From the NCBI GenBank assembly GCA_017440525.1, contig JAFSHB010000014.1, forward strand, positions 1 through 47,034: a stretch of 47,034 nt of DNA, in the 5' to 3' direction. The notes below the pieces were generated by a model that saw only the letters and a list, made by a program, of their open reading frames with translations, was not told the origin of the DNA and did no database searches. Origin of the DNA: Oscillospiraceae bacterium (lineage in GTDB: Bacteria > Bacillota > Clostridia > Oscillospirales > Oscillospiraceae). Shown here one piece after another: positions 22,516 to 42,102 of the stretch (its first letter is position 1; every line of letters starts with the position of its first letter). Made by a program: the position numbers and the translations under genes.

Positions 22516-25500
22516 TTAAGCTGCAGTAAGTTTGTCTATCCTCTCCAGCAAGCGGGCAATGAGATCGCTGCGGGCATCCTTCCACTCCAGAGAGTGAACA
22601 TGATAGATATTCCAACCAAGGCCCTTCAGGACAGCATCGTTGCGGTTATCCCGATCGATCAGGATCCCCAGGATATAACGGTCTTTGTGCTTGACAGCGA
22701 TGTCTACGCGGAAGTTGCCTTCACCCACAAGGGTATTCACTTCAAAGCCAGCAAGCGCGAGCTCACCGGCAATGGCACCGCAGACCTCATCCACATCCGC
22801 AGTCAGCACAGGCTGAGCAGCGCGAGTGGTGCTCTTGGCATAGATGAGGAAGTTACGGAGCGCTCGCACACCGTCACCGACTTTGTCCTCAGGAATCAGT
22901 TCGGGATCAAAGGAATTGTAGATCTTCATATCCTCTCTGGCACGGGTAATGGCAACATTCAGCCGGCGGTCGCCGCCTGCCTGAGTCAGAGGACCAAAGT
23001 TCAGGTCCAGCTTGCCGCTTTCCTTGGCAGAATAGGCCACGCTCAGAAGGATGATGTCACGCTCATCACCCTGCACATTCTCCAGATTTTTGATGAAGAC
23101 CGGTTCCTTCCTTTCGAAGGCCCATACTCGAAGCGCTTCATCCTTGCGGCACTCGGTCTCAAACAAGCTTTCAATGAGCGTTTCCTGCTGGTAATTCATA
23201 GTGACCACACCAACGCTGAGCTCGTTGCGTTCGGGATCCTTATAGATGTTCAGCAGTTCTGCCACCACAGCCTTCGCTTCTTCTTTGTTGGTCCTGGACT
23301 TGCCATGGTCGAACCTACCGTCCACTGCAACACGCTGCACATGAGAGGTCACATCATCTGCTGCAGGGAAGCTGATGAGCTTGGAATCGTAGAATGCTCT
23401 GTTGCTGAATGCGATGAGATCCTCATGTCTGGAGCGATAATGCTCCTTCAGCATGATTCGCGGAAAATTCAGATTGACGGCTTCGCTGAGGATGGATTCT
23501 GCAAAGACATCGCTGACCGGAGTTTCTTTAAAGAAGCTGCAGGGAGGCAGCTGGCGGGGATCGCCAACGATCATAGCCGCCCGCGCTCTTGCCAGCGCAC
23601 CGATGGCAGAAGCCACAGGGACCTGACTTGCTTCCTCGATCGCAGTGACATGGAAGCACTCATCCATGGGGAACACCTCTGCCACCATATCGGTGGTAGC
23701 CAGAACGATAGGACAGGTGCGAAGCGCCAGACGACGAACTTCGGGATCCGCATAGAGCTGGCGGAGACTGGACTTGGAATCATTGAGGAGGGTCATGTAG
23801 CGATTGGGCGCCGTAGAAACAGTCGCTTCACTGACCATATCGGGCACATGCCGGTCCAGCCGAGCAACGAGCTCCTGCGCGGCGACCTCACGAAGCGCCA
23901 CGGTCGCTTCCTCAGTCAAGGTCATGTCATGGTTCATGAGGTTTGCGGAGAACTCCTTCAAGACCTGTTTGGAATCGACGATCTCCTTGAGGATCTTCCG
24001 ATAGATAGCCTTCAACCATGCCTTCTCCACAGTCTCGGCATCGTAGTTATTCTCAAATGCCTCCACAGGAGCGTCCATGCCCAGATCGACAGCCTCTCTC
24101 TTCAGACGAAGCCATCCCATCCACTCAGGCAGTTTGTCCAAATTCTCCAGATAGGTGCTGTATCTGGCTCTCAGGCCATCAATGCTCTCGCCATAGTACG
24201 CTTCGGAAAGGTCCTTGCAGCGGGCAAAGCGCTTCACGGTACCATCATCCAGCAGCTTCTCGATAGCCTCCATATTGCCGTTTTTGCAGGTCTCCAGGAA
24301 GATCCTGCTGAGCGTTTCCACTTCCTCGGGAGTCTTCTGCAGCTTTTCACGGCAGTAGCGGCAATATTCTTCACGATCGTCTGCCTCCACCTGATACAGA
24401 GCCAGCAGCTCCAGCCATTCCATGGTCTCGCCCAAGCTCAAACGGCGCTTGGCATGCGCGTTCAGCTTTTCCATGATACCGGGCACCATGGTATGCTTAG
24501 CCAGACCACGGGCCTTTTCATACCGGTGGATAAGAGCAGCAGCATCCACTCGAAATACACTGGGATTGAAGACGCTCTCCACACGGGCACGAATCTGACG
24601 GTCACCACTGCTGCTGTCGGGAACGCACTTCATAGCATTCCGGAGCCGGGGCTCATCTGCGGCAAAGGCAATGGGCCGCAGACGATCGGCAAGACGGACC
24701 AGATCGCCGATCGTCATGGGCAGTCTGTCCTCACAGAAGGCCATAGCGACAGCATCACCGTCTTCCTTCAGCATATCAAGCATCTGCAGCTCTTTCAGCT
24801 GGATCTCCCGCTGCTCGGAAGGATCGCCATGGATCGCCATGTGACGGAGAGGATGGTGCTGCAGATCCATGGCAGATGCCATAGCTCCCATTCTGCGGAT
24901 GAGGGCGATCTGCTGCTGGATATGACCATCGGTCAGAAGCTCCAGGTCGGGAATGTGTCCCAGAGCAAAGCCCTGCACATTTTCATAGCGAATATTCGCA
25001 TTGATCAGTTCTCTCAGCGTCATCCCGCAGGCATACTTCTTGTCCCGCGCCTCGGCATACTTTTTCTGATCGGCAGCAAGCTTCTCCAGCTCACTGCGCT
25101 TATCAGCATATTCTGAGACCTGACCGCGCTTTCGCTGTTCCAAGGTCTCCCGCATTTTCTTCTTGACCGACTCCGTGCAGTTGGGTCCCAGACGAATCAG
25201 ATAGGGATCTGCACCGAGCTTGCGCAGGCGATCCTCGATCACATCCAGAGCCCCCTTCTGCGCTGTGGTGATGAGGACAGGCTTGCCCTTGGCCGCCGCG
25301 TTGACTGCAACAGCGGTGAGCTCCTGAGACTTACCGCAACCGGGAGGACCCTCACAGATCAGGGAGGCGCCTTTGCAAACGGCAGCAGCGATCCTCTTCT
25401 GTTCCTCGTTCAGTCCAATATCGATGATGTCATCACCATCGATCTTCCGGGTGAGATCTTCTGACTTGCGAACATCGAAATGGATCTGACCATCCAGGAT

Positions 25501-27372
25501 AGAACGCGTCAGTTCGTGCTGGCGAAGGTAGTCTTCATTGTTCACAAGATCCATGTATACGGTAAATGCAGCATTGGCAAAGGAGCCAAGGACACACTTG
25601 TCGAGCACCAACCAGTTGTTTCTGCCGATGATGGCATTCTTCAGCGCATGGATCGTGTTGACAAGAGGAGCACCTACATGGGTATTGAGCTTCACACCCA
25701 GACGGTCCAGACGGAGCTTCAGCACGGGATTGAGCGTCATTTCGCCGTCTGCCGCCAAAGCAGCTCCCTTGGACCCGGTAACAAGCTTTACCGGCTGCAG
25801 CAGGATGGGTGCATAATAGTTTTCAGACTTCTCATCCGTCCAGCGGAGCAGCCCGAAGCACAGATGCAGGCTGTTGAAGCCGAACTGTTCCAAATCGCGC
25901 TTACCGGTCTTGACCAGCTCCTTGACGCGTTTTTCCAGCGCACTCTTCTTCAGGCCGGTGGTCAGGCATGCCGCAGCATGCTCTTTGATAAGCAGCTCCG
26001 TTCCCTCGAGCTTCGCCTCAAAGTCGATAGGACAGTTGCCAAGCTCCTTGGGATAGGGGCGCAGCTCGAAGTGCTTTTCGGCCGCCACATCCTTCAGCAG
26101 CTTGTTCAGATCTGCACTACAGATGGGAATGAGCTTGTCATATTTCAAATTGATGAAAGGGGATGCCTTAGTAGAAGGCAAAAGGTACCGCTGCATGGCG
26201 CGAAGACGCTTTTCGGACGGCGTCTTCGCACCATCCTCTTCCTCTGCACCATCGAATTCGGGGAAATACAGCGCTTCGTCCACTTCATCGTCCTCGTTGG
26301 AGCCAGTCTGTCCCTCTTCCCCGGTCAGCTGTCTGGTAATGGGCAGAGGAACGGCACCCAGCGTTCTTGCACGGCTGACATCCACCATGTATTCGATGTT
26401 GTCCAGCTCGTTCATAGCGGCGGCAACAGCGGAGCTGTAAGGTGTGTTGGCGTTGTTCTGACCATGACAGAAGTATGTCGCCTCCACAGGCACCAGACGA
26501 CCGGCCGACACCAGCTGCTGCAGTTCGGATGCGGTGGCATCGGCACAGGAACTGAGCGCAGTCTTCTCCGTGAAGTATGCAATGAAGATATGGCCAGGGA
26601 CCAAGATCAGGACCACTCTGATACCTGCCTGCTCCAGACAGCCTGCAAAAAAGAGACTGGAGTCCAAACAATTGGCCTTCAGATCGTGAACGATCCGGTC
26701 GGGGAGCCTGACTCTCTGACCGGTCCGTTCAAAGCTGCTAGCCGTAGTACAATAGATGAGTTCCTTCTCCGCAAGCGCATCGTAGATGGCCTCTGCAACA
26801 GCCTTCACGCGTTCAGGATCCTTGCTCTGGTAGCCGGACATGCTGCCGCTGCCGGTACGCTTCTGAAGGAGCTCCTGTGCACGACGGTTGATCTCTTCCA
26901 CTACAGGATGATTGGGGAGCACATAGGACGCAAGGGTGGCCCGATGCGCGGTGGCATCCCACTCATCGAGGGTCAGCACTTCAACAGGAGCAGTGCTCTC
27001 ATAGAGGACATTTTCGCCCTGGCGGACCGTAACGGTCACGCCGCTCTGGCGCTTCTCGGTCAGACGATAGATGGCATCAGCATCCAGGATCAGCTCCACT
27101 GACGAGAGGTCCAGCCTGGCCTGAGCCGGCAGTTCATCCACATGGATAGAGCAGGTCTTGATCTCATCGCCGACGAGTGTGACCAGCAGGTTCTCCAGCG
27201 TTTCATTCCCGTGGTTTTCGAGGACCAGGCTCTGAAGAGGTCCGCGAAGGCCAAGGTTCTGATCGGAAGTACGGCTGATGTGATAGAGCGCATAGTTGAA
27301 CTTGCTGAGTGTCAATTCAGCGCTGACAACACCGATGTTGTCGGCACTCTCTTGGATCGTATAGTGGTTCAT
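22516..27372 (-). CDS. Transglutaminase-like / SF1 helicase / nuclease-like giant protein
   Basis: A 1618-residue protein. Residues 1-140 are beta-rich. At 230-270 lies a transglutaminase-like core: NCLDSSLFFAGCLEQAG with Cys235, then PGHIFIAYF with His261. Residues 400-640 resemble DUF4011-type helicase N-termini. An SF1 helicase follows: Walker A EGPPGCGKSQ (675-682), IEEASQVPVASAIG, IVGDPRQLPPC, LKEHYRSRHEDL, VQGDERDIILLSVAYS and LNVAITRARED. The end (FRVDIAVKHKDRYILGILID) is a restriction-nuclease-like domain, but where relatives have GIECDG this reads GILIDR, so a catalytic Glu may be lost. Such helicases are frequent in anti-phage or conflict loci. AGGAGGAAGGACT precedes the ATG; it starts 13 bp after the PBP gene, last in its operon. 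Confidence 0.85.
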   Translation of the reverse strand: MNHYTIQESADNIGVVSAELTLSKFNYALYHISRTSDQNLGLRGPLQSLVLENHGNETLENLLVTLVGDEIKTCSIHVDELPAQARLDLSSVELILDADAIYRLTEKRQSGVTVTVRQGENVLYESTAPVEVLTLDEWDATAHRATLASYVLPNHPVVEEINRRAQELLQKRTGSGSMSGYQSKDPERVKAVAEAIYDALAEKELIYCTTASSFERTGQRVRLPDRIVHDLKANCLDSSLFFAGCLEQAGIRVVLILVPGHIFIAYFTEKTALSSCADATASELQQLVSAGRLVPVEATYFCHGQNNANTPYSSAVAAAMNELDNIEYMVDVSRARTLGAVPLPITRQLTGEEGQTGSNEDDEVDEALYFPEFDGAEEEDGAKTPSEKRLRAMQRYLLPSTKASPFINLKYDKLIPICSADLNKLLKDVAAEKHFELRPYPKELGNCPIDFEAKLEGTELLIKEHAAACLTTGLKKSALEKRVKELVKTGKRDLEQFGFNSLHLCFGLLRWTDEKSENYYAPILLQPVKLVTGSKGAALAADGEMTLNPVLKLRLDRLGVKLNTHVGAPLVNTIHALKNAIIGRNNWLVLDKCVLGSFANAAFTVYMDLVNNEDYLRQHELTRSILDGQIHFDVRKSEDLTRKIDGDDIIDIGLNEEQKRIAAAVCKGASLICEGPPGCGKSQELTAVAVNAAAKGKPVLITTAQKGALDVIEDRLRKLGADPYLIRLGPNCTESVKKKMRETLEQRKRGQVSEYADKRSELEKLAADQKKYAEARDKKYACGMTLRELINANIRYENVQGFALGHIPDLELLTDGHIQQQIALIRRMGAMASAMDLQHHPLRHMAIHGDPSEQREIQLKELQMLDMLKEDGDAVAMAFCEDRLPMTIGDLVRLADRLRPIAFAADEPRLRNAMKCVPDSSSGDRQIRARVESVFNPSVFRVDAAALIHRYEKARGLAKHTMVPGIMEKLNAHAKRRLSLGETMEWLELLALYQVEADDREEYCRYCREKLQKTPEEVETLSRIFLETCKNGNMEAIEKLLDDGTVKRFARCKDLSEAYYGESIDGLRARYSTYLENLDKLPEWMGWLRLKREAVDLGMDAPVEAFENNYDAETVEKAWLKAIYRKILKEIVDSKQVLKEFSANLMNHDMTLTEEATVALREVAAQELVARLDRHVPDMVSEATVSTAPNRYMTLLNDSKSSLRQLYADPEVRRLALRTCPIVLATTDMVAEVFPMDECFHVTAIEEASQVPVASAIGALARARAAMIVGDPRQLPPCSFFKETPVSDVFAESILSEAVNLNFPRIMLKEHYRSRHEDLIAFSNRAFYDSKLISFPAADDVTSHVQRVAVDGRFDHGKSRTNKEEAKAVVAELLNIYKDPERNELSVGVVTMNYQQETLIESLFETECRKDEALRVWAFERKEPVFIKNLENVQGDERDIILLSVAYSAKESGKLDLNFGPLTQAGGDRRLNVAITRAREDMKIYNSFDPELIPEDKVGDGVRALRNFLIYAKSTTRAAQPVLTADVDEVCGAIAGELALAGFEVNTLVGEGNFRVDIAVKHKDRYILGILIDRDNRNDAVLKGLGWNIYHVHSLEWKDARSDLIARLLERIDKLTAA

Positions 27373-27385
27373 AGTCCTTCCTCCT

Positions 27386-28729
27386 TTATCTGTAAGCGAT
27401 CAGCTCGGCCAGCACATTGGCCACATCTGCTGCATGATAGCCATGCTGATCAAAATTTTCCACTTTCACTACAAAGGCTACATTGCTGTCCTCCAGAATG
27501 CCCAGCAGGAAGCTGTTCTGTCGGTAAAATGGCTGTTCCAACTCGGCCGTTCCCGTCTTTGCTGCGGTGATCTCAGGGACCAGGTTCCTGTTCAGGCCGC
27601 GGTAATAGGTGTCGGTCGCGAGCTTCCAATAGTCATATGTGGTATGAGCAGCCTTCCTGCTGGCATAGGTCTTGAGCTTGACTTTGGCTTCCTGAAGCAC
27701 TTTGGGCTTCTCCGGGTCATTGTCGTTGACGATGGACTGCACCAGATAAGGCTCGGCAGCCTTTCCGTTATTGGCGATGGCTCCGGCGATCTGAGCCAGA
27801 TCGATGAGGGATATCTGGTTATCGCCTTGGCCGCAGAATGCGCTGAGTGTGTGACCATCGGACGAAGACCGGATGTTGGTGTAAGAACCGGAGCGCTTCA
27901 GCTCCCCCAGCGCGACCGACTTGGACACGCCCCCGCAGCCGATGCCCCATTTCTCAAGATCCTGCTTGGCCTCCGCCATATCCAGATCGGTAGCTGCCAT
28001 ATTGGCAAAGGCGCGATTACAGCTCTTGCCCAGCATATCCACGATGCCGATGTTGGCACCATGCGGCCCCTGAGAGCAGAACACCGCCTCACCGGAACGG
28101 TACTGGTCGCCGTGGCGGCCCACGCAGTCGTAAGTAAAGCTGTCAAGCGCAGCTCTGTCCTGTTCAGCAGCCAGCAGCGTGGTCAGGACCTTCATGGTGC
28201 TGCCATTGATATGGAGCTCAGTCAGGACCTTACTCTCAGTCTCGGGACCGTTGCCGTCCTTGCGGACCGACAAAGCCAGGAGCACCTCGCCAGTGACATA
28301 ATTGTAGGCATACACGGCGCCTTCGTTACCATGGAAGGCATCGATGACCGCCCGATGCTCGGAAGGACTCATAAGAGTGGTCGTCATGATATTGCCTCTT
28401 TTGGCTGCCCGCCTGCTGCCGAAGCGATCGATGCGGGGCGTGAGCTCTGCCGCATACTGGTAAAACAGCGTCTGTGCGACCTTGCCGCCCTTGCAGCCTA
28501 CCAGATCGGCGAAGATGACATCGTAGTTTGTGGAGCCATCCTGCTCCATGAGCACGGTGCCATCGGCGCTTCTGATCTCACCGTATATGCCGAGTATTTC
28601 TCTGCGAACGGAGCCGGTGAGCATCACGGAGCTATCGGATACCCGGTGAGAGACGATGGGCAGGCTCATGAAGAGTGCGATGCAGAGGACCGCAGACACC
28701 CAACGGAGCTTTTTTTCAGTATTTTTCAT
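27386..28729 (-). CDS. Penicillin-binding transpeptidase, PbpA-like
   Basis: A 447-residue class B-like transpeptidase. It has an N-terminal membrane anchor (WVSAVLCIALFMSLPIVSHR), a short pedestal and a complete catalytic domain: STMK at 177-180, SCN at 236-238 and KTG at 391-393. These should cross-link peptidoglycan outside the cell. It resembles actinobacterial PbpA more than FtsI in size. I chose the ATG at 28729 because AGGAGCGG precedes it; the gene overlaps the SEDS gene by 14 bp, as expected for a SEDS-PBP polymerase-transpeptidase pair. Its place beside FHA and kinase genes suggests phospho-control. The three motifs are intact, so it is probably active. Confidence 0.9.
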   Translation of the reverse strand: MKNTEKKLRWVSAVLCIALFMSLPIVSHRVSDSSVMLTGSVRREILGIYGEIRSADGTVLMEQDGSTNYDVIFADLVGCKGGKVAQTLFYQYAAELTPRIDRFGSRRAAKRGNIMTTTLMSPSEHRAVIDAFHGNEGAVYAYNYVTGEVLLALSVRKDGNGPETESKVLTELHINGSTMKVLTTLLAAEQDRAALDSFTYDCVGRHGDQYRSGEAVFCSQGPHGANIGIVDMLGKSCNRAFANMAATDLDMAEAKQDLEKWGIGCGGVSKSVALGELKRSGSYTNIRSSSDGHTLSAFCGQGDNQISLIDLAQIAGAIANNGKAAEPYLVQSIVNDNDPEKPKVLQEAKVKLKTYASRKAAHTTYDYWKLATDTYYRGLNRNLVPEITAAKTGTAELEQPFYRQNSFLLGILEDSNVAFVVKVENFDQHGYHAADVANVLAELIAYR

Positions 28730-30458
28730 GCATTTTCCGCTCCTTTCTGATACACACAAGGCAGATCGCCATCAAGCCCGCCGCAAACACAAGGGCACCG
28801 GCAAGGCCTGCTTCATAACCGGCCTGACTTTTGACCTTGTCAATACTGAGCGTGAGATCCACCGTGTCAGTGTGGTCGGTCAGGTACTGGACGATCCTTG
28901 TACAGATCTGCTCAGCCATCCCGGAAGCTTCATCGCACACACGAACACGAATGTACCCCGAGCCGGTATAAAATACTTCCACATTCCCATTCAATTCGGG
29001 ACTGGAGCAGCCGAGCCCCATATCGATCGCCAGTTCACCAAGATATTCATCAGAAGCGGCGTAGACGACCTGATCGACCACGGTATCCTGATCATGGTCT
29101 TCTGTCAGCTCCACGAGACAATAGGCCTCATATCGATCCACGACTTGGGCATCCTTGAAGAAGAAGATAGACAGCGCCACTGCCAGCGCAGCCGCCAGCG
29201 GGATCCAGAGCAGCTTCATGATACGGGCAAGGACCCCAGCAGGCAAGCCTCTTTGCTGTATACTGGGACAGAAGCCACCGCAGGTCATGCCCAGAAGCGC
29301 TCCATAGGCAAGGATGGCAGTACCGCCCCGGCTTATGACAGGGGCAGTGATCCCTGTGAAGGGAAGACAATCCGCACTGCCGAGGTAGTTGAGTATTACC
29401 TGTGCAGCTGTCATCACACCAAGCTGGATCGCTACGATGTGGCCGGAGGGATATACGGTCTTATGGGGCATAGACTGGATGCAGATGATGATGTAAGCAC
29501 CCAATACCACAAACAGCACAGGCTCGCCCAGCAGACATTGGATCCCGGCCAAAGCCAGATCGGTCTCGTGGGAATAGATGCTGCTGAAGAGCTTACCGTT
29601 CTGCAGCCCCAGACCGAAGAAGCCGCCGGCAGCCAGCGCGCGGACCGTGGCACCCTGCTGGGTGAGCTCTTCACTCTCAAGCGCTGAACCGGTGGCCAGG
29701 ATCCGCTCCATAGCGTAGGGGTTTTTGAGGAGCATGACCCAGAAGGCCACAGCACCCACGATCAACAGGCCCACAGTGAACTTCCAGCTATCGACCAGCT
29801 CGATGGACATGTACAGATAGAGGGCTGCGAGGACGGCGGCGCCGCCAAGATCGTGAGCCCACATGAACAACACGGCAGATACAAGGGTGCAGATGGAGTA
29901 GATGACGATCCGCTTGTTGTTGCGATAGGCCATGGAAGCCTGCAGGATCAGCAGCACTTTGATGATCTCGGAGGGCTGGATGCTGATGGGCCCGATGACG
30001 ATCCAGAGCCGGGACACAGTGTCCGCTCTGGTAGATCTGCCCAGCGCAAAGTTCGCCGCAACGAGACCGAGGATCAAGACGGTCAGGATGCTGAACTCCT
30101 GATCGCCGAAGGTGCTGTTGTATCGAAGCAGGAAGAAGCCGGCAAGGGCCGCCACGAACATCACCAACAGGTGAGCGGCATATTCGCCTATGCCGTAGAG
30201 GCCCTGGAACACAGTGCCTACGGCGCATAAGACAGATACGGCAGCAAGAACAGAATGCAAATAGAAGTTCCTGCGAATACAGATCCAGGAGAGCAGTGCC
30301 AGCAAGCCGGCGATCACACCCAAGGTCAGCAGCACCATAGAGCTGTTGTAGCTCTCGAGCTCCAGCTCTATGGGCGTCTTCATAAGGATCACGATGAAGC
30401 CCAGAGCCAGGAATACCGGCATCAGTTTGCGGCAGTTTTGTTTGGTGAACAGCATCAT
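28716..30458 (-). CDS. SEDS glycosyltransferase (FtsW/RodA/SpoVE family) with extra C-terminal domain
   Basis: A 580-residue protein. Residues 1-435 hold the polytopic SEDS core: ISIQPSEIIKV (QPSE at 161-164), QQGATVRALAAGGFFGLGLQ, SHETDLALAGI (Asp300 in the position of the catalytic Asp) and GITAPVISRGG. SEDS proteins polymerise lipid II with a cognate PBP, here encoded next door. Unlike ordinary FtsW/RodA (about 370-420 residues), about 140 residues follow: an external segment (AYCLVELTEDHDQDTVVDQV, YTGSGYIRVRV, TDTVDLTLSIDKV) and a last transmembrane helix. This tail resembles Wzz-type chain-length regulators, by eye only. The gene overlaps the FHA gene by 4 bp and the PBP gene by 14 bp. 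Confidence 0.9.
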   Translation of the reverse strand: MMLFTKQNCRKLMPVFLALGFIVILMKTPIELELESYNSSMVLLTLGVIAGLLALLSWICIRRNFYLHSVLAAVSVLCAVGTVFQGLYGIGEYAAHLLVMFVAALAGFFLLRYNSTFGDQEFSILTVLILGLVAANFALGRSTRADTVSRLWIVIGPISIQPSEIIKVLLILQASMAYRNNKRIVIYSICTLVSAVLFMWAHDLGGAAVLAALYLYMSIELVDSWKFTVGLLIVGAVAFWVMLLKNPYAMERILATGSALESEELTQQGATVRALAAGGFFGLGLQNGKLFSSIYSHETDLALAGIQCLLGEPVLFVVLGAYIIICIQSMPHKTVYPSGHIVAIQLGVMTAAQVILNYLGSADCLPFTGITAPVISRGGTAILAYGALLGMTCGGFCPSIQQRGLPAGVLARIMKLLWIPLAAALAVALSIFFFKDAQVVDRYEAYCLVELTEDHDQDTVVDQVVYAASDEYLGELAIDMGLGCSSPELNGNVEVFYTGSGYIRVRVCDEASGMAEQICTRIVQYLTDHTDTVDLTLSIDKVKSQAGYEAGLAGALVFAAGLMAICLVCIRKERKMHEKY

Positions 30459-30889
30459 GCATCGACCTCCTCAAAATAGATATAGACCGAACCAAGACAG
30501 ATCCTGTCTCCGTCACGCAGACGAGTGGGGGGCGCATTCAAGATCGGCTCGCCGTTTACAGCGACGAGGGAGAACTCCCTGCCCCGGAGCATCGGACTGA
30601 TATAGAAGTGGTTATCTGCTTCTCTGGCGATCAGCGCGTGAAGACGGCTGACACCGGTCCTCGCAGGCAAGAGCAGATCGCATTTCGACCACGAACGCCC
30701 CACCAGAACAGAACAGCTGTCCAGACGGTGTATGGTCTCCGTTCTGGTCTCGGGATCCACGATCCGAAGCCGGGCATTCATGACCTGACTGTAGTAGTTG
30801 GAGCGATGCCAGGCTTCTTTGAATGCTCTGGCAACGCCTGCCGCACAGAGCAGAACACCGAACCCAACAAGAAGGATGTAGGATAACAT
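30455..30889 (-). CDS. Membrane-anchored FHA-domain protein
   Basis: A 144-residue protein with an N-terminal transmembrane helix (LSYILLVGFGVLLCAAGVAR) and a cytoplasmic FHA domain. The phosphothreonine-binding residues are present: VGRS (Gly64-Arg65), SRLHALI (Ser81 to His84) and VNGEPI (Asn112-Gly113), then LRDGDRICLG. It should bind phosphorylated partners at the membrane, most simply targets of the kinase at 37061-38704. It is first in the FHA-SEDS-PBP-helicase block, with its own promoter at 30922-30950 and a 4-bp overlap with the SEDS gene. GGGAGG precedes the ATG. FhaB of actinobacteria has a similar position. Confidence 0.92.
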   Translation of the reverse strand: MLSYILLVGFGVLLCAAGVARAFKEAWHRSNYYSQVMNARLRIVDPETRTETIHRLDSCSVLVGRSWSKCDLLLPARTGVSRLHALIAREADNHFYISPMLRGREFSLVAVNGEPILNAPPTRLRDGDRICLGSVYIYFEEVDA

Positions 30890-30921
30890 AAGGATACCTC
30901 CCGATCAAATTTCATACACAT

Positions 30922-30950
30922 ATCATACCATTCTCGCAAAAAGTGTGCCA
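30922..30950 (-). promoter_or_regulatory. Promoter of FHA-SEDS-PBP-helicase block
   Basis: On the minus strand an extended -10 TGGTATGAT (30922-30930) lies 17 bp after TGGCAC (30945-30950). The same region reads TGGCAC-N5-TTGC, matching sigma-54 -24/-12 spacing. Sigma-A use seems more likely; see findings. Confidence 0.55.
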
Positions 30951-31020
30951 GCCGGAGCATTTGTGACAAAATGGCCGTTCCAAAGTCTGCTTCCGTCTCT
31001 TTTATTATAAGGGAATATGC

Positions 31021-31062
31021 AGAAAAGTCCCGATGTTCATTTGTGAACATCGGGACTTTTCT
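31021..31062 (-). terminator. Terminator between the two blocks of the cluster
   Basis: A perfect 19-bp stem (31021-31039 with 31044-31062) with a 4-nt loop, directly after the stop codon of the GAP1-like gene. It divides the cluster into two transcription units. Confidence 0.85.
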
Positions 31063-31063
31063 G

Positions 31064-32437: not shown

Positions 32438-32453
32438 ATTCGGACACCTCTTG

Positions 32454-33584: not shown

Positions 33585-36511
33585 AACTGAGTACCTCCTA
33601 TTTTTGTGATAATGAGTCCGTCTTGAGATATCGGACAGGAGCGCTGTAGAACGGCTGCCGATCCGACCTTTTCTTCAAATTCGCTTTCCGTGTAGACCGT
33701 CTCTTTGCCGGTGCTGTCTACGACCCGGATAAACACACGGTCGTAAGACTGCCGCTCCGCGGCAAGTTTCCGGACATATGCCTCATGGGCCTTCTTCGAC
33801 TGCTTCTGTTCCTTTTTCGAGAGGCGGACATCCGCAGCAGGCACTCTGACCGCGATCAAAGACACTCCACCCAACAGACGGCCGCCGCAAAGGAGGAAGC
33901 GCACGAGGAAATATGTGCCGGCAGCCGCAGTCAGGACGGCAAGGACGATCGGCAGGCAAGTCCCGTAGGGCAGTGCTTTCAGCACATCAAGCCCCATCGA
34001 CAGCCGCACCGCCTGCAACCAGGGCAGTTCAAGACGCACCCGGAAGAGCAGGAGAAGCGCCGCCGCCAGCACGAGGATGATCGAAAGATTCCTGCCGTAG
34101 AGATCCCATTTCTGCCACAGTTCCCACTTCGGAAGCTGAGAGGTCACTTTTTTGGCCTTTGTCTGTGGGATCTTTTCGTTGTCCAGTGTATCGAGCCGAA
34201 GAACATTTACCATAGCCAACACAGGCACACCGACGGCGACTATGTAGAACAGCACACCCAGACGGCCTCCCGCAGCCTTACGGTAGATCATGCCGCACGC
34301 AAAGATCTGCAGAAGAAGATATCCGGATGCACAGAGCCAACCACGGAACTGCTGATCCCTTTTTTTCTGCAGGACCTCCCACGCCTTTTCCTTCGTTTTT
34401 TCCATCAGAAGGATCCTCGGTGCGTCCATATGCCCTTCGGCAGCCAATAGCAAGATCATTTGTGCCAGCAGAGAGAACAGCAGTGCCAGACGGCTGTTGA
34501 TCGCGCTTGCATAAATGCCTGCCCAGGCAGACAGCAGCATCCCGGCTGCCATATAGGGACGGAAGCCCACTGTAAGCTCTCTGCCTTTCAGCGGCAATAA
34601 TTCAAATTCTGTCACAAATACGCTCCCGGCCAATATCCCGATCAGGGCCACAGTGACGATTTTTCCGATCGGCGAGGGGCCCGCGCAGGCCAGAGCCGGT
34701 GCAGCCACCGCATAAAAGGCAGTCGCTGCTTCAACGAATTCCTCTTTGTCTACCGGAAGACCTTCTTCGGTCAGACACAGCACGATCGTCAGAAGGGTCG
34801 CAACAGATGCGAATATCCAGAACAGGCTGCCGCCAAGGGCACAAATGGGGATAATGGCCGCCCACATCCGCACCAGCAGTCCGAATGTGTAGTCATGGAG
34901 CCAAAGACCGTGATCCTCCAGACTGGCCAGAAGAAAATAGACAGCTCCAAAGTTCAGTGCTATGCCCCATAAGAGATCCCGGGCGCTATCCAGCAGCAGC
35001 AAGAGCATATCCAGCCGTGTTTCGATAGGATCCCCATTCTGCAGTGTGCTCAGCCACTGAACAAAGCCGCTGACCTTTACAGGCGCGTTGGGATCGCCGA
35101 CAGCGATCGCACGCTCTGCCGCAAAGGTGATCCAGCCAAGGACCAGCAGGATCAAGAACACCGTCCGAAAACCACGGACCTTCTTCATTTTGGGCTGATG
35201 GAGCCACTCTCCATAGGACAGCTTTTCGGAGAACACGGCATCGCCGGTGGCTCTCTTCATCGCATGAGCGGACACCAGCGAAGCGATGATACAAACAAAG
35301 ATCGCAGCGCCGACCAGTATTTTTTCACAGAGCAGCCACTGCAGCAGCTCCGTTATCCGTAAGACCGTCGGCATCCGATACCACAGGATGTAGAGCAGCA
35401 CGAACAGGATCAGACCGCAGATATTCCGGCTGCTCCGATACCAACGGCAAGCCCGCAGCTGTCGACGAGCGACGACTTTGGGATCTTGTTTGGAGACCAG
35501 CTCTTCGCCATCCTCCGGAAGGACGTTCCGCACAGAAGGCTTTTTCTCTACACTCAGGAAGAAAAGTACGCCCTCCAGCAAGACGAACAAAAGCAGATCC
35601 GACCGCAGAAGAGGTGCCATCATCATACGAGCCGTTTGAACGATGTGATATGTCGTTGCCAGTTGATGCTGCCAGCCAACGATGTCAGCGAAGCCGATCT
35701 GGACCATCTTAGAACGCAAGGCCAACGGATCGACGGCACCCTCTGCGCAGACGATCAAATGCAGACCAAACAGGACCGCCAGGACCACGAACCACCCCTT
35801 GACCTTTCGGCCGCAGACCTTGGCGGAGATGAATTCCATCCGAATCACATTCCAAAGGATCCAGAACAGCCCTAGCCCACAGAACAGTGCTTCCGTGGAT
35901 ACGGATGCGCTGTTCAGGAATCCCATATTGATCGCAGAAAGCACTATGGGTCTCACCCGGAGCGCTGCTGCCACCGTCGCCAGACCGATCAGTCTGACGC
36001 AGAGAACATCATGATATTTCCGATATTCGAATGTTGTACCGGGCACACTGCGCTTCTTTCGAACAGCATTGCTAAAGTCATCTCCCACAATGAACAGGAA
36101 TACACATCCGAGCGCCCAGAAGATCGCACCGCCCAACAGCACGATCAGTATCAAAACAGGAAGCAGCAGCCAGATCCCTTTGCGGAACAGCTCCCGCCAA
36201 CGAAGAGGTGCCGCTACCGTTTCCAAGCGATACCATGCTGCGAAGCATTCACTCACAGCAAAGCCGCAGAACAGCAAGGCCACATCCGCAAGGCCGCGGA
36301 TGATATTTTTGAATAGCATCACATCGGCATCGAGAACACCGATGTAGACGCTGCCGAACAGGAACTCTCTCAGCCAGGGCAGTTCGATCGTCCCGGCTGT
36401 GATACCGTTCTTTTCCAGGATCGCCATGGTACCCTGGTAGATCGCCAGCAAGATCATTGCGATCAGCAGGCTCCACAAGACCGGGCTCCATGATCTTTTG
36501 TATGCGCGCAT
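33581..36511 (-). CDS. Large polytopic membrane protein, unknown family
   Basis: A 976-residue protein with about twenty hydrophobic segments (for example WSLLIAMILLAIYQGTMAIL, LLLPVLILIVLLGGAIFWAL and IVLAVLTAAAGTYFLVRFLL). A cytoplasmic C-terminal tail is rich in Lys/Gln (LSKKEQKQSKKAHEAYVRKL), and its end is short and beta-like. I recognise no domain. It is translationally coupled to the GTPase gene by a 4-bp overlap and lies between the small membrane protein and the GTPase, so it is a likely membrane platform or channel of this system. AGGAGAGAG precedes the ATG at 36511. Long length without named domains makes it a good candidate for a novel family. Confidence 0.75.
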   Translation of the reverse strand: MRAYKRSWSPVLWSLLIAMILLAIYQGTMAILEKNGITAGTIELPWLREFLFGSVYIGVLDADVMLFKNIIRGLADVALLFCGFAVSECFAAWYRLETVAAPLRWRELFRKGIWLLLPVLILIVLLGGAIFWALGCVFLFIVGDDFSNAVRKKRSVPGTTFEYRKYHDVLCVRLIGLATVAAALRVRPIVLSAINMGFLNSASVSTEALFCGLGLFWILWNVIRMEFISAKVCGRKVKGWFVVLAVLFGLHLIVCAEGAVDPLALRSKMVQIGFADIVGWQHQLATTYHIVQTARMMMAPLLRSDLLLFVLLEGVLFFLSVEKKPSVRNVLPEDGEELVSKQDPKVVARRQLRACRWYRSSRNICGLILFVLLYILWYRMPTVLRITELLQWLLCEKILVGAAIFVCIIASLVSAHAMKRATGDAVFSEKLSYGEWLHQPKMKKVRGFRTVFLILLVLGWITFAAERAIAVGDPNAPVKVSGFVQWLSTLQNGDPIETRLDMLLLLLDSARDLLWGIALNFGAVYFLLASLEDHGLWLHDYTFGLLVRMWAAIIPICALGGSLFWIFASVATLLTIVLCLTEEGLPVDKEEFVEAATAFYAVAAPALACAGPSPIGKIVTVALIGILAGSVFVTEFELLPLKGRELTVGFRPYMAAGMLLSAWAGIYASAINSRLALLFSLLAQMILLLAAEGHMDAPRILLMEKTKEKAWEVLQKKRDQQFRGWLCASGYLLLQIFACGMIYRKAAGGRLGVLFYIVAVGVPVLAMVNVLRLDTLDNEKIPQTKAKKVTSQLPKWELWQKWDLYGRNLSIILVLAAALLLLFRVRLELPWLQAVRLSMGLDVLKALPYGTCLPIVLAVLTAAAGTYFLVRFLLCGGRLLGGVSLIAVRVPAADVRLSKKEQKQSKKAHEAYVRKLAAERQSYDRVFIRVVDSTGKETVYTESEFEEKVGSAAVLQRSCPISQDGLIITKIGGTQL

Positions 36512-36527
36512 TTTCTCTCTCCTCCCC

Positions 36528-37064
36528 TCACATGCCGAGAATGGCTGTCAAACTGAGGTGGTCGTCATTATTTTTGTTCCGAATGGTGAGCATCTGGCCA
36601 TTGGTCAGGACAGCCCGATCAGGTGTCCCATTTTCGTCCACCGCAGGGATCACAAACCGACGGATGCCGTCCCTCTCCTCACAGTGTACCACGAACTCGT
36701 GGTCTTTGAAGCTGATGGCGATATTTTTGCCAGCTTCGAAGGGAACGATATTTTCCTTCTCGTGAGGCTGAAGGTAACGGTCCTTGCCGACAAGGATATA
36801 CCGAAGGTAGAGCTTCTGCGCCCCCGGAGATACCGGCTTTCTGCCGGGCCGCAGCTTTCCCTTTCTCTTAGCGCCACCGGTCTTGGCAGGCCTTCTGACC
36901 CGACGGATCACAGGCAGGAGCAGCAAACAGGCCAGCAGCACACTTTCGCAGAGGAGCAAAATGCCGCAAAGGACCGGCGGCATCTTGCTCTCGCCAAGGA
37001 ATAGTATGACACCGAGGACTGCAGCGCCAACGATCAGAATGGTCTTTCCGGTCTTATCCATCAT
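36528..37064 (-). CDS. Two-helix membrane protein with beta-rich C-terminal domain
   Basis: A 178-residue protein: two N-terminal transmembrane helices (TILIVGAAVLGVILFLGES and LCGILLLCESVLLACLLLLP), a very basic linker (RRVRRPAKTGGAKRKGKLRP) and a C-terminal domain of alternating strands ending DRAVLTNGQMLTIRNKNNDD. The last part recalls the end of an FHA fold, but Gly-Arg and SxxH motifs are missing, so it may be a degenerate FHA or something else. The ATG at 37064 overlaps the kinase stop codon (ATGA), which supports that start and indicates coupled synthesis with the kinase. Confidence 0.7.
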   Translation of the reverse strand: MMDKTGKTILIVGAAVLGVILFLGESKMPPVLCGILLLCESVLLACLLLLPVIRRVRRPAKTGGAKRKGKLRPGRKPVSPGAQKLYLRYILVGKDRYLQPHEKENIVPFEAGKNIAISFKDHEFVVHCEERDGIRRFVIPAVDENGTPDRAVLTNGQMLTIRNKNNDDHLSLTAILGM

Positions 37065-38704
37065 ATCGAACCTCTCTTTCTGCCAACGAACAGGCGGCGG
37101 TGTTCCTTTTCTATGTACCATCCCGTAGAAGGGGTGATCTTCCCGTATATCCCATCCAGTTCCTCACAGAGCCGATCATAGTCTCCCAAAGCAGATCCCG
37201 ATCCGCGTTCGGGCTCGGGTTCGGGCTTAGGTTCAGGTTCGGGGTTAGGTTCGGGTTCGGGCTCGGACAGTTCTACAAATGTGGAGCGCATCAGTCCTTC
37301 CGGCTTCTGTCCGGGGGCATAGACCGTCACCGAGATCCCCGGCATAGTATACTCCGCACTTTTGATGATCCCGTCCAACCTTTTACCGTCAAACCCCTTC
37401 TGTAGGAAGATCCGAAGATCTTTATTAAAATTTACAAGCGACGGCAATACTGTCAGCACATTTTCAACATACACTTCCGGTGCCGTGACGCAGGAGGCTT
37501 CTCTCCAGAACTCACCAAGTTTTTCTTCGCAGCGCGCTTCATTGGCCAGTTCGCGTGACCTTCCCCAAACCAGAACAGCGAACATACCGCCGGAAAAGGC
37601 CTCCCTCAGATGGGACAGGACCTCCGCTCCCCACTTTTGAAGCACACCGGGATCGATGATCGCCACGAAAGTGGGCCCCCCCACTTTCCTCGGATCGGGA
37701 GGAAGTTCAGTATCGCCTTGCACTTTTCTCTCGAAAGCTGTTTTGACAGCATCGAAGGGCAGACGATCCGTCCGATCGATTCTGGTCATATATCGGAACA
37801 TGGTCTTGACCCAATCATCCGCATCCGGGCCCCACCGGAAGGTTCGCACTTCCTTTTCCATCCATTCATCGTCATGGCCTGCTGCTATCTGTTCCTGATA
37901 GAAGCACCGCAGTTGGGTGGGATTCGGCCAATCGCCCCCACCATGAGCCCTCGTGACCTCTTCAATAGGATTTGCGTTGCCGAACAGCTCTGCCAGCATA
38001 CCGCCCAGCCCCCACACATCCACACGATCATCGACCGAAGCTTCGCAGACAGTTTCAGGTGCCGTATTGCCCAGGCTGATGATATTTTTGACGGTGCCTG
38101 TCGGACCAACAGCAATGGTAGCAAAATCGATGAGCCGTACCTTAAATGTATCGCCATCCAATTCTTCGATCAAAGTGTTTTTCAGCTTTATGTCCCGGTA
38201 TGCAGCGACCTTGCGATCGCCGACCGAATGCGCATACAGTTCTTCCAGTGCCTGCACACACTGGTAAAGGTATTCCAGCTTCGTATTGACATCCGCAGTC
38301 TTCAGGAGATCCTCTGCATCCTCGTAATGGGGTTCCAGCATCATGTAGGTACCAGCCGGCGTTGACAGCATGGCCCTTTCGCCTTCTGCCATCAATTCTT
38401 TCTGCAGGCGCTCAGCGTTATCGTCCAGAAGAAGGATCTCCCGGATATGTTCGCCCCCAAACGGATAGAGATCCCAGAACTGCCTGCAACCGGGGATCCT
38501 TCTGCCTTCGCAGGCATACACATCGGTATTATGTTCGTACACAAAGAGGCAATATTCCTTCTCTTTCACGAACCCATCAGGAACAGCGTCTTTAAACTGT
38601 ACCTTCCAGATCTGCTTCCCGCTATCATCGCTGCAGAGCGGCTGTGTCGCGACCAGCACATATCCCTCTCCATGATGTACGAATCTCATTTCTCTTCTCA
38701 TCAT
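37061..38704 (-). CDS. Serine/threonine protein kinase
   Basis: A 547-residue kinase without a membrane helix. An unusual N-terminal 130 residues precede the C-lobe: AAYRDIKLKNTLIEE (YRD in place of HRD, Asp171, Asn176), VRLIDFATIAVG (DFA in place of DFG, Asp193), GNTAPETV (APE at 215-217) and RVDVWGLGGMLAELF. Catalytic Asp and Asn and the metal Asp are kept, so it is probably active. A second globular part (about 330-470) and a Pro-Glu repeat (PEPEPNPEPEPKPEPEPE) follow. The genes for a PP2C phosphatase and an FHA protein are nearby, and the gene overlaps its downstream neighbour by 4 bp. The start has only a weak ribosome site. Confidence 0.88.
   Translation of the reverse strand: MMRREMRFVHHGEGYVLVATQPLCSDDSGKQIWKVQFKDAVPDGFVKEKEYCLFVYEHNTDVYACEGRRIPGCRQFWDLYPFGGEHIREILLLDDNAERLQKELMAEGERAMLSTPAGTYMMLEPHYEDAEDLLKTADVNTKLEYLYQCVQALEELYAHSVGDRKVAAYRDIKLKNTLIEELDGDTFKVRLIDFATIAVGPTGTVKNIISLGNTAPETVCEASVDDRVDVWGLGGMLAELFGNANPIEEVTRAHGGGDWPNPTQLRCFYQEQIAAGHDDEWMEKEVRTFRWGPDADDWVKTMFRYMTRIDRTDRLPFDAVKTAFERKVQGDTELPPDPRKVGGPTFVAIIDPGVLQKWGAEVLSHLREAFSGGMFAVLVWGRSRELANEARCEEKLGEFWREASCVTAPEVYVENVLTVLPSLVNFNKDLRIFLQKGFDGKRLDGIIKSAEYTMPGISVTVYAPGQKPEGLMRSTFVELSEPEPEPNPEPEPKPEPEPERGSGSALGDYDRLCEELDGIYGKITPSTGWYIEKEHRRLFVGRKRGSI
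37206..37267. repeat. Low-complexity repeat coding for Pro-Glu in the kinase
   Basis: A hexamer-like array of TCGGGT/TCAGGT/TTAGGT units; on the minus strand it encodes alternating Pro and Glu. It may vary in length between strains. Confidence 0.75.
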
Positions 38705-38730
38705 ATTTCCGCCCCCGGTCTTTTTTCGGT

Positions 38731-39486
38731 CTAGCAGCTGTACCGCACAGCAAGAAGTGTGTTGTTATCGTCAGTAGTCGTGCTTTCTGCCACCTTTTCG
38801 CTCAATTTTCTCACCAGCGCATCCATGCTTTGGGCGTTCAGGAGCGCCGCTTCTACGGTCTCATCCCGCTCTCTGTCGCTCATGGCATCCTTCAGCATGC
38901 CATCGCTGCCCACCAGCAAGATGCCTTCGCCGGAGAGCTTCACCGACTGCACCGGCACTTCATCCGCACAGCCGATCACAGCTCTCGGGGTGCCGCAAAA
39001 TTTATTCAGACCGCTTCCGCCGCTCCTGTGATCTTCGTAGACCTCTCTGGCCCCGTTTTTTGTCACCAGCAATACCGGACAGTCGCCGGCATTGGAAACG
39101 AACAGATGCTCTCCGGCCAGCAGCGCAGCAGATACTGCACAGCCCATATCCCCAAAAACAGCGACATTGTCGTTGAGAGCTTCATGGATCTCATATATCA
39201 GGCTTTGCATGGCCTTGGACAGATTCTTTATGGCATTCTCAGCTTCACCGCGCAAGACCAGTTCCGGGAGCCGGGGAAGGATCTGCTTCCCGACCGCCAC
39301 ACCAAACAAGCTCTCCAATGCGATGGCCGAGGAGATCCTGCCATTGCTCATGCTGATGCCATCGATGACCACACCGAGCCAGACCTGTTCGCCCGGGATC
39401 GTTTCGAGCGTCATGGAAAAGCAGGCATCCTCATTACATTCTCTGCCTCCTCGATTGGAGTAGGCTCTCATATCAGAAATCATCAT
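38731..39486 (-). CDS. PP2C-type protein phosphatase
   Basis: A 251-residue PPM/PP2C phosphatase. Motifs are seen in order: GGRECNEDAC (Asn-Glu-Asp at 18-20), GVVIDGISM (Asp42-Gly43, metal site), GCAVSAALLAG, VSNAGDCPVLL (AGD at 133-135), LLVGSDGML (SDG at 194-196) and TTDDNNTLL (Asp239-Asp240). All metal-binding aspartates are present, so it should reverse the action of the neighbouring kinase. It lies between the pseudokinase-like gene (21 bp) and the kinase gene (26 bp). ATG at 39486 is used; a second in-frame ATG follows at once. Confidence 0.93.
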   Translation of the reverse strand: MMISDMRAYSNRGGRECNEDACFSMTLETIPGEQVWLGVVIDGISMSNGRISSAIALESLFGVAVGKQILPRLPELVLRGEAENAIKNLSKAMQSLIYEIHEALNDNVAVFGDMGCAVSAALLAGEHLFVSNAGDCPVLLVTKNGAREVYEDHRSGGSGLNKFCGTPRAVIGCADEVPVQSVKLSGEGILLVGSDGMLKDAMSDRERDETVEAALLNAQSMDALVRKLSEKVAESTTTDDNNTLLAVRYSC

Positions 39487-39507
39487 GATCGTTCACGCTC
39501 CTGTGTC

Positions 39508-40542
39508 TCAAAAATGTTTGAAGGTCCTCTTGCGGTCTTCGGACCGGGCCTCTTTGTTCCGATCGCCGGACTTCCGCAGCTGCTGCCACCATGCAAGGAA
39601 CCGCTCCTTCAGATCTTCCGCACTGTCGATCTTCCGACCGGCGATCGGATCTTCGCTGCACTCAACATATTCCGCCTTCGCCCTTCTGCCAGTATCAGAT
39701 ACAGCAGGAGCAGGTCTTTCGGAAAGGGCCTCGATCAGTTTCTCCAGCTTGGGACGAAACTCGGGGAAGGGAAGGATCGCACGCACGAAGATGCTGTCAA
39801 CATCGCCCATATGAGGCAGCATCGCACCGTCACTTTTGAACAGGCCATAGGCCGCCTCATGAGCAAGAAGCACCGCCGCATAGGCATCTCCGCTGGCATC
39901 CATGATTCCATCATTGGGGAGCTCTGCAGGAGGCTTCCCCACAGCAGACCAGATAGGAAGGATGCGGACAGACAAACTGCCGTTTTGTTCGGAGACGAAC
40001 ACCGTATCGGGGCAAAAAGCCAAGGGGATCCTCTTCGTATTGTTCTGCCAGTATTCTGCAGTGAGCAGAAGCAATTTCAGTAAAAACGCCCTATCGTCTT
40101 GCAGCAGCCGACGCAAAGTGCCGTTCTCCGCCACTGCGCGACGGACAGACATCTCCCCCGTCTGCAGCGGAAACAGACATACATCCAGCTTCTGGTCAAG
40201 TGTGACCTGTCTGGTAGACGGCATGATCCAGGTGCCGCCGGCCGCAAAGCAGCCGGCTATGTGTTCTCTGATCTGCTCATCACCGGCCTCCTTCTTTTCG
40301 GCCGCAAAGCCTACCAGAGGGTTGCCGTATGTATCCTTGTAATCAAAGATCTTGCCGCCATAGAGGGTCTGCTTGCTGTCCTCAATGACCCTGCGAAGGG
40401 CCGGTGCATCGGAGACATAGTCCTCGTAACCATAGGGAGGAACATGACCGGAGGGGTCCTTACGGGCAGATTCCTCCGTTTCTCTTCCGCCTGGTTTTTT
40501 CACATATTCACTATAGTCAATGTCTTCAAACAAACCGTGCAT
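39508..40542 (-). CDS. Probable pseudokinase
   Basis: A 344-residue soluble protein. Its middle resembles a kinase C-lobe stripped of catalysis. IPLAFCPDTVFVSEQNGSLS, RILPIWSAVG, GDAYAAVLLAHEAAYGLF and LPFPEFRPKLEKLIEAL align by eye with the catalytic loop, DFG strand, DVYALG helix and RP motif of bacterial Ser/Thr kinases, but HRD and DFG residues are absent. The call is therefore tentative. It could scaffold or regulate the true kinase two genes on. AGGAGG is 8 bp before the ATG at 40542. An additional extended -10 (TGGTATATC, minus strand 40570-40578) in the 77-bp gap upstream may be an internal promoter. Confidence 0.5.
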   Translation of the reverse strand: MHGLFEDIDYSEYVKKPGGRETEESARKDPSGHVPPYGYEDYVSDAPALRRVIEDSKQTLYGGKIFDYKDTYGNPLVGFAAEKKEAGDEQIREHIAGCFAAGGTWIMPSTRQVTLDQKLDVCLFPLQTGEMSVRRAVAENGTLRRLLQDDRAFLLKLLLLTAEYWQNNTKRIPLAFCPDTVFVSEQNGSLSVRILPIWSAVGKPPAELPNDGIMDASGDAYAAVLLAHEAAYGLFKSDGAMLPHMGDVDSIFVRAILPFPEFRPKLEKLIEALSERPAPAVSDTGRRAKAEYVECSEDPIAGRKIDSAEDLKERFLAWWQQLRKSGDRNKEARSEDRKRTFKHF

Positions 40543-40619
40543 GATCTGTTCCTCCTGTTTTTCATTTTGGATATACCAACTTTATCACAGATCTCGAGCG
40601 TTTTCCACCGGAGCAGATG

Positions 40620-41618
40620 TTAAGTTTTGGGCTCGAACAGCTTTATGTAGTCCTGCATGGCCTGGTCAGTGCTTCTGGGATAGAGCAAAGCACAGTCGGC
40701 CTGCTGGAGTATCAGGTTCATTTCGACCATAGAGCAGCCCATCGCCGCATAGCACCGAACCAGATTGTCATAGCATCCCCGACTCTTTCCAAGCAGGATC
40801 TCCTCGGCAGTCTTCGGTGCGCAACAGGCTTTATTAGCGACCTGATCGTACAATGCACCGCCACTTTTCAGACCGTGTGCTTTCAGGACTGCTCTTCGAC
40901 TGTCACGCAGATCTGCCGCACAGATCTGCTTCACTTTCGCTTCAAGGTCCTCGATCACTTTTTTGAGATCGCCACCACAATCATCCCAAGTAGGAACATT
41001 CATCTTGGCGCAGGATGTGAGAAGGCCCGGCAAGCCCAGACGACGCAAAAGCATCTCCAGAAGACCCAGCCATTCACAGCCGTCAGGCAGCAGCCGCTTG
41101 GTCTCTTCGTCCTCCCGCGCTGCGTTGGCCCAGCCAAAGACACACTTGGTCAAATAATTGCTCCGGTTGCTCTCCTCATCGTATGTATTGGTGAAGAATC
41201 CGGGATAGCCGATCTCCATAAGAACATGTTCAGCTTCTTCCACCGTCAGAGCTTCGGCTGCACAAAGCATGATCGCGATACAGATAGGACGAGCTGTGGG
41301 GCGGGTGTTGCCAAGGAACATCGAGACCACATTCGGCTGCACGCCGATCAGTTCTGCCAGCTTTCCGTTTCTCTTTTTCTCTTCGAGGATGACCGCATTC
41401 TTGGCTCGCTGCACCATGGCCGTTCTCTGCGTCAGACCGTGCACCTCGCTGAAGGGAATGACCTCAGTGCGATCACCATTCTGAATGACGAGACCTTCAG
41501 GTGTGACCGTCACCTTCTCTGCGGAAAGTGCTTTCCAAGTGCCGCTTCTCCGGTCGAACTCCTGATAACGAGCAGCTTCATCAAAATACTCCTGATCGAT
41601 CTCCATTGCTTTTTTCAT
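40620..41618 (-). CDS. Protein with two HTH-like segments, first gene of the cluster
   Basis: A 332-residue protein. Around residues 110-180 is an XRE-like segment (GKLAELIGVQPNVVSMFLGN, then ALTVEEAEHVLMEIGYPGFF). Near the C-terminus a second similar helical set ends LILQQADCALLYPRSTDQAM, reminiscent of the PLYPRNxRD end of XRE domains found in signalling loci. It may be a DNA-binding regulator of the cluster or use its HTH folds for protein contact. I chose the ATG at 41618, 9 bp after AAGGAG; longer readings to 41801 include the promoter. It opens the upstream block of the cluster, directly behind the promoter at 41655-41684. Confidence 0.55.
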   Translation of the reverse strand: MKKAMEIDQEYFDEAARYQEFDRRSGTWKALSAEKVTVTPEGLVIQNGDRTEVIPFSEVHGLTQRTAMVQRAKNAVILEEKKRNGKLAELIGVQPNVVSMFLGNTRPTARPICIAIMLCAAEALTVEEAEHVLMEIGYPGFFTNTYDEESNRSNYLTKCVFGWANAAREDEETKRLLPDGCEWLGLLEMLLRRLGLPGLLTSCAKMNVPTWDDCGGDLKKVIEDLEAKVKQICAADLRDSRRAVLKAHGLKSGGALYDQVANKACCAPKTAEEILLGKSRGCYDNLVRCYAAMGCSMVEMNLILQQADCALLYPRSTDQAMQDYIKLFEPKT

Positions 41619-41654: not shown

Positions 41655-41684
41655 ATTATACCATGTCCGACTGCCGATCGTGAA
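41655..41684 (-). promoter_or_regulatory. Promoter of the kinase-GTPase block
   Basis: On the minus strand a consensus extended -10, TGGTATAAT (41655-41663), with a weak -35 TTCACG (41679-41684) at 18 bp. A short dyad GAATG-TG-CATTC (41682-41693) overlaps the -35 region. Confidence 0.65.
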
Positions 41685-42070: not shown

Positions 42071-42102
42071 AGCAAAAAGCACCCCGAAGGGTGCTTTTTG
42101 CT
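42071..42102 (-). terminator. Terminator of the SLH protein gene
   Basis: A 14-bp stem AGCAAAAAGCACCC / GGGTGCTTTTTGCT with CGAA-type loop, adjoining the stop codon. Confidence 0.85.

Follow-up and report, generated by a model that had tools for sequence, protein, structure and literature searches.

Whether a set of signalling genes and a pair of cell wall synthesis genes lying next to each other form a single functional system, and what such a system might do, is the question raised by a cluster of twelve genes in two blocks on a 47,034-nucleotide contig (JAFSHB010000014.1, assembly GCA_017440525.1) from an Oscillospiraceae bacterium, the whole of which is hereafter called the window. The window is contig C70 of a source genome of 147 contigs and 2.11 Mb, which is 80.8% complete and contains four SEDS genes. 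In a preliminary description the cluster was proposed to join a kinase, PP2C, FHA, SEDS and PBP set to a TRAFAC-like GTPase, a GAP1-like adaptor, a large membrane protein and a helicase. Judged by sequence comparison, the coupling of a DO-GTPase and a kinase with a dedicated wall synthase is real and recurs, and within the scope of our searches it has no earlier description; the mechanism that we propose for it is a reading of these comparisons.

The recurrence was established in other genomes. When the window GTPase was searched against 295 genomes of the order, five were matched including its own, and among the rest G144 proved to be a real relative, in which genes for the adaptor, kinase, a protein with two transmembrane (TM) segments, GTPase, GAP1-like protein, FHA-like protein, SEDS and PBP follow one another in one direction (SIG630), collinear with the window. 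Identities between the window and G144 proteins amount to 20–30% in six pairs, 28.9% for SEDS and 31.9% for PBP, and gene order has therefore outlasted much sequence change. In G144 there are 4-bp overlaps between the GAP1-like and FHA-like genes and between the SEDS and PBP genes, the former bridging the two blocks that in the window lie on either side of a hairpin. Two further arrays were found by DO-GTPase searches that included no SEDS input: that of G002 (five of 147 genomes matched), with the order GTPase, GAP1-like protein, membrane protein, PP2C, kinase, weak FHA protein, 204-amino-acid (aa) protein and SEDS, and that of G436 (four of 152 genomes matched), with the order GTPase, GAP1-like protein, membrane protein, kinase, 493-aa protein, 80-aa product, SEDS and PBP. 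The membrane proteins of both carry F5/8-type C domains above the Pfam cut-off, with an additional weak SH3 match below the cut-off in G436, and proteins built in this way would fit a role in reading the envelope. G144, G002 and G436 represent three families, none of them that of the window. The collinear core of G144 and the related arrays of G002 and G436 thus bear out the proposal that the kinase, FHA, SEDS and PBP genes belong with the GTPase, and co-occurrence in this strain only, which would have spoken for a chance neighbourhood, was not the outcome. As a unit of twelve genes the set fared less well: the core recurs, whereas PP2C is found in two of the four SEDS-containing clusters, and the 976-aa membrane protein and the helicase in one each, that of the window.

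Nine DO-GTPase loci were counted (G000, which is the window, G144, G002, G436, G761, G062, G080, G023 and G419), with stretches of about 20 kb read per locus, and more for G436, and the counts hold for those stretches. SEDS genes were counted with a seven-sequence profile, as the window SEDS used alone as query missed that of G436. They are present in four of the nine loci, PBP genes in three and tubulin-like genes in another three (G761, G062 and G080), with neither SEDS nor tubulin-like genes in G023 and G419. Leaving the window aside, SEDS occurs in three of eight loci, an outcome with a rough chance of ~0.003 if SEDS genes are presumed to be placed at random and at the density of the source genome (4 in 2.11 Mb). 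The G761 locus (L018:5308-18218), composed of tubulin-like, DO-GTPase, GAP1-like and vWA genes, represents in Clostridia a relative of the tubulin theme known from the literature. Left out of the count were G007, G032, G051, G395, G011, G650, G018 and G022: of the matches of the window GTPase in G007, G032 and G051, the first two were dropped as resembling Mrp-type ATPases, matches in G395 and G011 were dropped as HypB-like and FtsY-like, all by eye, the 3.4-kb contig of G650 was too short to judge, G018 gave a weak GAP1-N2 match, and G022 has a GAP1-N2 protein but no open reading frame (ORF) matching any window protein.

The cluster appears to be distributed patchily. The kinase was found in one of the six genomes of G144's genus, and the 976-aa protein, the only one with which the window's own genus was probed, in one of eight genomes (70–88% complete), the other seven having none. 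An adaptor profile matched the source genome and G144 only, among 394 genomes of the order, and a kinase profile run on 329 genomes of the phylum matched the source genome and six others in which the match was limited to the kinase core. In single-protein scans close relatives were absent from plasmids, genome contigs yielded SIG630 alone and the G436 proteins gave no relatives, while viral contigs contained no relative for queries A1 or A5. These searches are insensitive, the window GTPase having missed G002 among 295 genomes and query A1 having missed G436 among 391, so the true spread is underestimated. Patchy occurrence, read with this sensitivity and the incompleteness of the own-genus genomes in mind, is more in keeping with an optional stress or conflict module than with a core growth pathway.

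The GTPase gene (32454..33584, on the minus strand, like all genes of the cluster) encodes CxxC pairs, a P-loop (GSRGQGKS) and a Walker B motif (DFPGE). In a single hhalign comparison, the window and G144 GTPases matched four DO-GTPases with 98.5% probability (E 1.9e-15), the Walker B Glu of DFPGE in the window and DFAGE in G144 being aligned with that of DIAGE or DMRGE in other DO-GTPases, and the invariant CxxC and RxCPxC pairs constituting a zinc-ribbon signature with predicted metal binding. The score against Pfam DO-GTPase2 is 15.5 bits, below the cut-off of 27. At profile level the protein is a DO-GTPase. The GAP1-like gene (31064..32437) lies directly downstream, as it does in all four SEDS clusters, and in all four its product has C-terminal TM segments, two of them in the window. 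A P..LR...SF motif is common to the window protein, that of G144 and four of seven other GAP1s. Profile comparison gave scores of 6.5 and 9.0, barely exceeding the highest reached in 400 shuffles (5.2), and identity as GAP1 is no more than suggestive.

The wall synthesis arm consists of a SEDS glycosyltransferase (28716..30458; Pfam 91.4 bits) and a short PBP transpeptidase (27386..28729; Pfam 74.7 bits). The SEDS Asp and the SxxK, SxN and KTG motifs of PBPs are catalytic, and all are kept in the alignments, the SxN motif reading SCN in the window. By these motifs the two proteins form a candidate functional pair, for which glycosyltransferase and transpeptidase activities are predicted. The window PBP scores 168 bits against the G144 PBP and 47 bits against a PBP encoded elsewhere in its own genome, where a SEDS gene with an N-terminal FHA-like stretch is followed by a PBP gene. 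A C-terminal extension of well over 100 residues, with a final hydrophobic segment at its end, sets the window SEDS apart from the other six aligned SEDS, and the SEDS proteins of G002 (L045:114-1649) and G436 (L057:6522-8165) have a Cys-rich, zinc-ribbon-like insert before the catalytic-Asp stretch that is not found in the other five. Upstream of the SEDS gene is the FHA gene (30455..30889; Pfam FHA 44 bits), whose product has one N-terminal hydrophobic segment. It is weakly similar to the 203-aa protein of G144, the FHA-like assignment of which follows from position, one N-terminal TM segment and this weak alignment, Pfam being negative.

All twelve minus-strand ORFs were found where they had been described, in a first block from 41618 to 31064 and a second from 30889 to 22516, and the reported overlaps at four joints were reproduced as 4, 4, 4 and 14 bp with in-frame ATG starts read from the translations; taking the longest open frames instead gives 61 and 44 bp at two of the four. 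The inter-block gap is 174 bp. A terminator-like, perfect 20-bp hairpin (31020..31063, minus strand; -33.8 kcal/mol, z -11.7) follows the stop of the GAP1-like gene, and a promoter-like site with TG before the second hexamer (30922..30951, minus strand) precedes the FHA gene; a similar site (TTCACG-18-TATAAT, also with TG before the second hexamer; 41655..41684, minus strand) lies upstream of the first block, both sites being consensus matches only. The presence of both the hairpin and a promoter-like site in the inter-block gap points to two transcription units. Among the window proteins, Pfam bears out the assignments PP2C, protein kinase, FHA, SEDS, transpeptidase and DUF4011/AAA_11/AAA_12/MTES_1575, and finds no match near the cut-off for the GAP1-like protein, the adaptor or the 976-aa membrane protein. 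Directly upstream of the cluster (42102-44699) is a gene for an SLH-domain surface protein with an Ig-like domain, and in G436, some 10 kb upstream of the GTPase gene, two genes resemble by eye an AbiE-type toxin-antitoxin pair (L055:2-1095).

The first block opens with a gene for a soluble 332-aa protein (40620..41618) in which two putative helix-turn-helix-type repeats were noticed by eye and for which no counterpart was recognised in the other three SEDS clusters; weak Pfam and PDB matches to haemagglutinin were taken as chance. It is followed by the soluble 344-aa adaptor (39508..40542), which has a 25% identical counterpart in G144 (phmmer 2.8e-9), and which is not claimed as a pseudokinase, since a profile comparison with the kinase failed and no PDB kinase was matched. 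Next come a PP2C-type Ser/Thr phosphatase (38731..39486; PP2C 28.1 and SpoIIE 35.6 bits, both above the Pfam cut-offs, and 47.2 of the 230 bits required for NCBIfam Stp1) and a Ser/Thr kinase with an RDxKxxN loop and a C-terminal extension (37061..38704; Pfam Pkinase 46.6 bits), which is 30% identical to that of G144 in the alignment. The protein with two TM segments and a soluble C-terminal domain (36528..37064) is regarded as the counterpart of a 253-aa protein of G144 on the basis of position and topology, there being no significant sequence match between them. The 976-aa membrane protein (33581..36511), with 18 predicted hydrophobic segments, is a sensor candidate that searches did not recognise in the other three SEDS clusters.

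In the actinobacterial PstP/PknB wall locus, genes for FHA, PP2C, SEDS, PBP and kinase proteins stand side by side and the kinase bears PASTA domains. The window likewise has these five kinds of gene together but, unlike that locus, adds the GTPase, GAP1-like, adaptor and large membrane protein genes, is patchy and not conserved, and shows no Pfam match for PASTA in its kinase. The actinobacterial locus is dealt with in PMC6554272. DO-GTPase/GAP1 systems were predicted from genomes by Kaur et al. 2020 (PMC7159879), where, in the parts available to us, the family is characterised by a P-loop GTPase with a conserved Walker B Glu and, in 60% of members, an N-terminal zinc ribbon, proximity to the cell wall is suggested, and a third theme combining kinase, PP2C and vWA is described as restricted to Actinobacteria. 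The window resembles that theme, so far as it is laid out there, in its zinc-ribbon GTPase with the Walker B Glu, the adjacent gene with C-terminal TM segments, the kinase with PP2C and the envelope association, and differs in occurring in Clostridia and in adding FHA, SEDS and PBP; unlike the GAP1-N2 and third-theme systems, the window cluster gave no Pfam match for FNIII or vWA. The tubulin-like/DO-GTPase/GAP1 loci of G761, G062 and G080 share the GTPase family and the GTPase-GAP1 order but have tubulin-like genes and, in the stretches read, no SEDS match. The terms FtsW, RodA, SEDS, penicillin and transpeptidase are absent from the main text of PMC7159879, the only paper on DO-GTPase/GAP1 systems that we found in the open-licence literature, in which we also found no paper tying SEDS, FtsW or RodA to defence, TRAFAC, FHA or GTPase, and none joining the anti-phage, wall and kinase themes. 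The view that no described system has this gene set therefore stands, within the open-licence literature searched, for the SEDS/PBP arm, and does not stand for the GTPase part, which belongs to a class described in what we could consult of PMC7159879.

Because the SEDS and PBP catalytic motifs are kept and the clusters are patchy, the cluster looks like an accessory wall synthesis module under a GTPase/kinase switch. The best explanation, in which our confidence is about evenly balanced, is an envelope-sensing DO-GTPase switch driving dedicated SEDS-PBP wall synthesis. The DO-GTPase and the neighbouring membrane-anchored GAP1-like protein would form a switch that senses an envelope insult, and the kinase, opposed in the window by the PP2C phosphatase, would phosphorylate a partner bound by the FHA protein; this binding would turn on the dedicated SEDS glycosyltransferase and PBP transpeptidase, which would build new peptidoglycan or remodel it where the insult occurred. 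The module would be accessory, gained and lost between species, and in its logic would resemble a response to conflict or stress more than routine growth. The parts of this scheme that we infer are what the signal is, which way signalling runs, the phospho-FHA step, the activation of SEDS-PBP and any protective role.

Several results weigh against it. The window SEDS scores 123 bits against that of G144, 67 against the own-genome copy and 21 against that of G002, the own copy thus being closer than G002, and the G144 PBP also matches the own-genome PBP well (108.5 bits). The seven-sequence SEDS tree places the window together with G144 on one side (98) and groups G002 with G436 (100). Because of this split and the window SEDS scores, the two pairs may have been recruited separately, the coupling having arisen twice. 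PP2C was not seen in the G144 or G436 clusters, and in G002 no PBP follows SEDS, the next gene being by eye the start of an ABC-2 permease-like gene, after which the contig ends. A GAP1-like adaptor had been proposed in the preliminary description, and its position after the GTPase agrees with this, but homology to GAP1 obtained only 1% and 24% in two hhalign profile comparisons. The GTPase structure model (pLDDT 36.5) was useless and was not used, and conflict is hinted at only by the GTPase family and the helicase.

The rival that survives best, possible if on the unlikely side, is a species-specific growth or developmental regulator, in which the GTPase would time or place the wall synthesis carried out by alternative elongation or division machinery, and conflict would play no part. 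Its likeness to the actinobacterial wall locus speaks for this, as does the fact that, among the proteins compared, the own-genome pair of FHA-like SEDS and PBP is the next most similar to the window pair after that of G144; against it, patchiness even within genera is unlike core growth genes, and elsewhere the GTPase family is accompanied by tubulin-like and vWA genes. That the cluster provides immunity or a response to damage, with a DO-GTPase conflict switch driving its own SEDS-PBP pair to seal or reshape the wall where a phage enters, a lysin acts or a rival attacks, in place of cell killing or DNA cleavage, is a tentative and rather unlikely suggestion.

Two of the remaining rivals involve the 1618-aa DUF4011 helicase-nuclease of ProA/Hhe/PDC-S37 type (22516..27372), identified by Pfam and defence-model matches, which starts 13 bp after the PBP gene and probably shares its transcript. 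It matches the ProA, Hhe and PDC-S37 models strongly, a likeness to such systems that is confined to this one protein and falls short of two curated NCBIfam cut-offs, with 1021.6 of 1500 bits for ProA and 368.8 of 2000 for Hhe. By phmmer, it is missing from all eight other DO-GTPase loci, including the other three SEDS clusters, while 433 plasmid records contain relatives with <60% identity, of which 29 span 80% or more of the helicase; in two of the 433 records that were inspected, the listed genes, an incomplete set, include no cluster-type neighbours. Because of this absence and these plasmid relatives, the helicase is probably a separate defence gene and a mere neighbour, and its proposed part as effector of the system is not supported. 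In PMC10250203, the sole paper on DUF4011 and anti-phage defence that we found in the open-licence literature, DUF4011 is given as a core gene that flanks a defence hotspot. Just beyond the helicase, a convergent DUF559 endonuclease-like gene was observed (21905-22282). It is distinctly unlikely that SEDS-PBP serves as bait guarded by the GTPase/kinase part, a block in wall synthesis firing a killing effector, possibly the helicase-nuclease: a conflict-type GTPase does lie in the same array as a helicase so near to the PBP, but the helicase is not in the other three SEDS clusters, Pfam recognises no killing domain among their scanned proteins, and the catalytic motifs are kept as in a working enzyme. 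Very improbable is a single defence system of all twelve genes with the helicase-nuclease as effector, for which the same direction and the 13-bp distance can be cited; against it, the helicase was not found in the other three clusters, and such neighbours are lacking beside both plasmid relatives inspected. That a GTPase/kinase locus and a SEDS-PBP locus are neighbours by chance we barely credit: the hairpin and the promoter-like site at their joint in the window speak for it, but the joint is a 4-bp overlap in the collinear G144, and arrays occur in two further families.

The DO-GTPase family has so far been linked to bacterial immunity, and the cluster hints at wall remodelling as an answer to attack. 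SEDS and PBP neighbours have standard assays, lipid II polymerisation and cross-linking, which offer a measurable output for the family. If the envelope-sensing switch is true, wall synthesis would join the list of outputs that a prokaryotic conflict switch may control.

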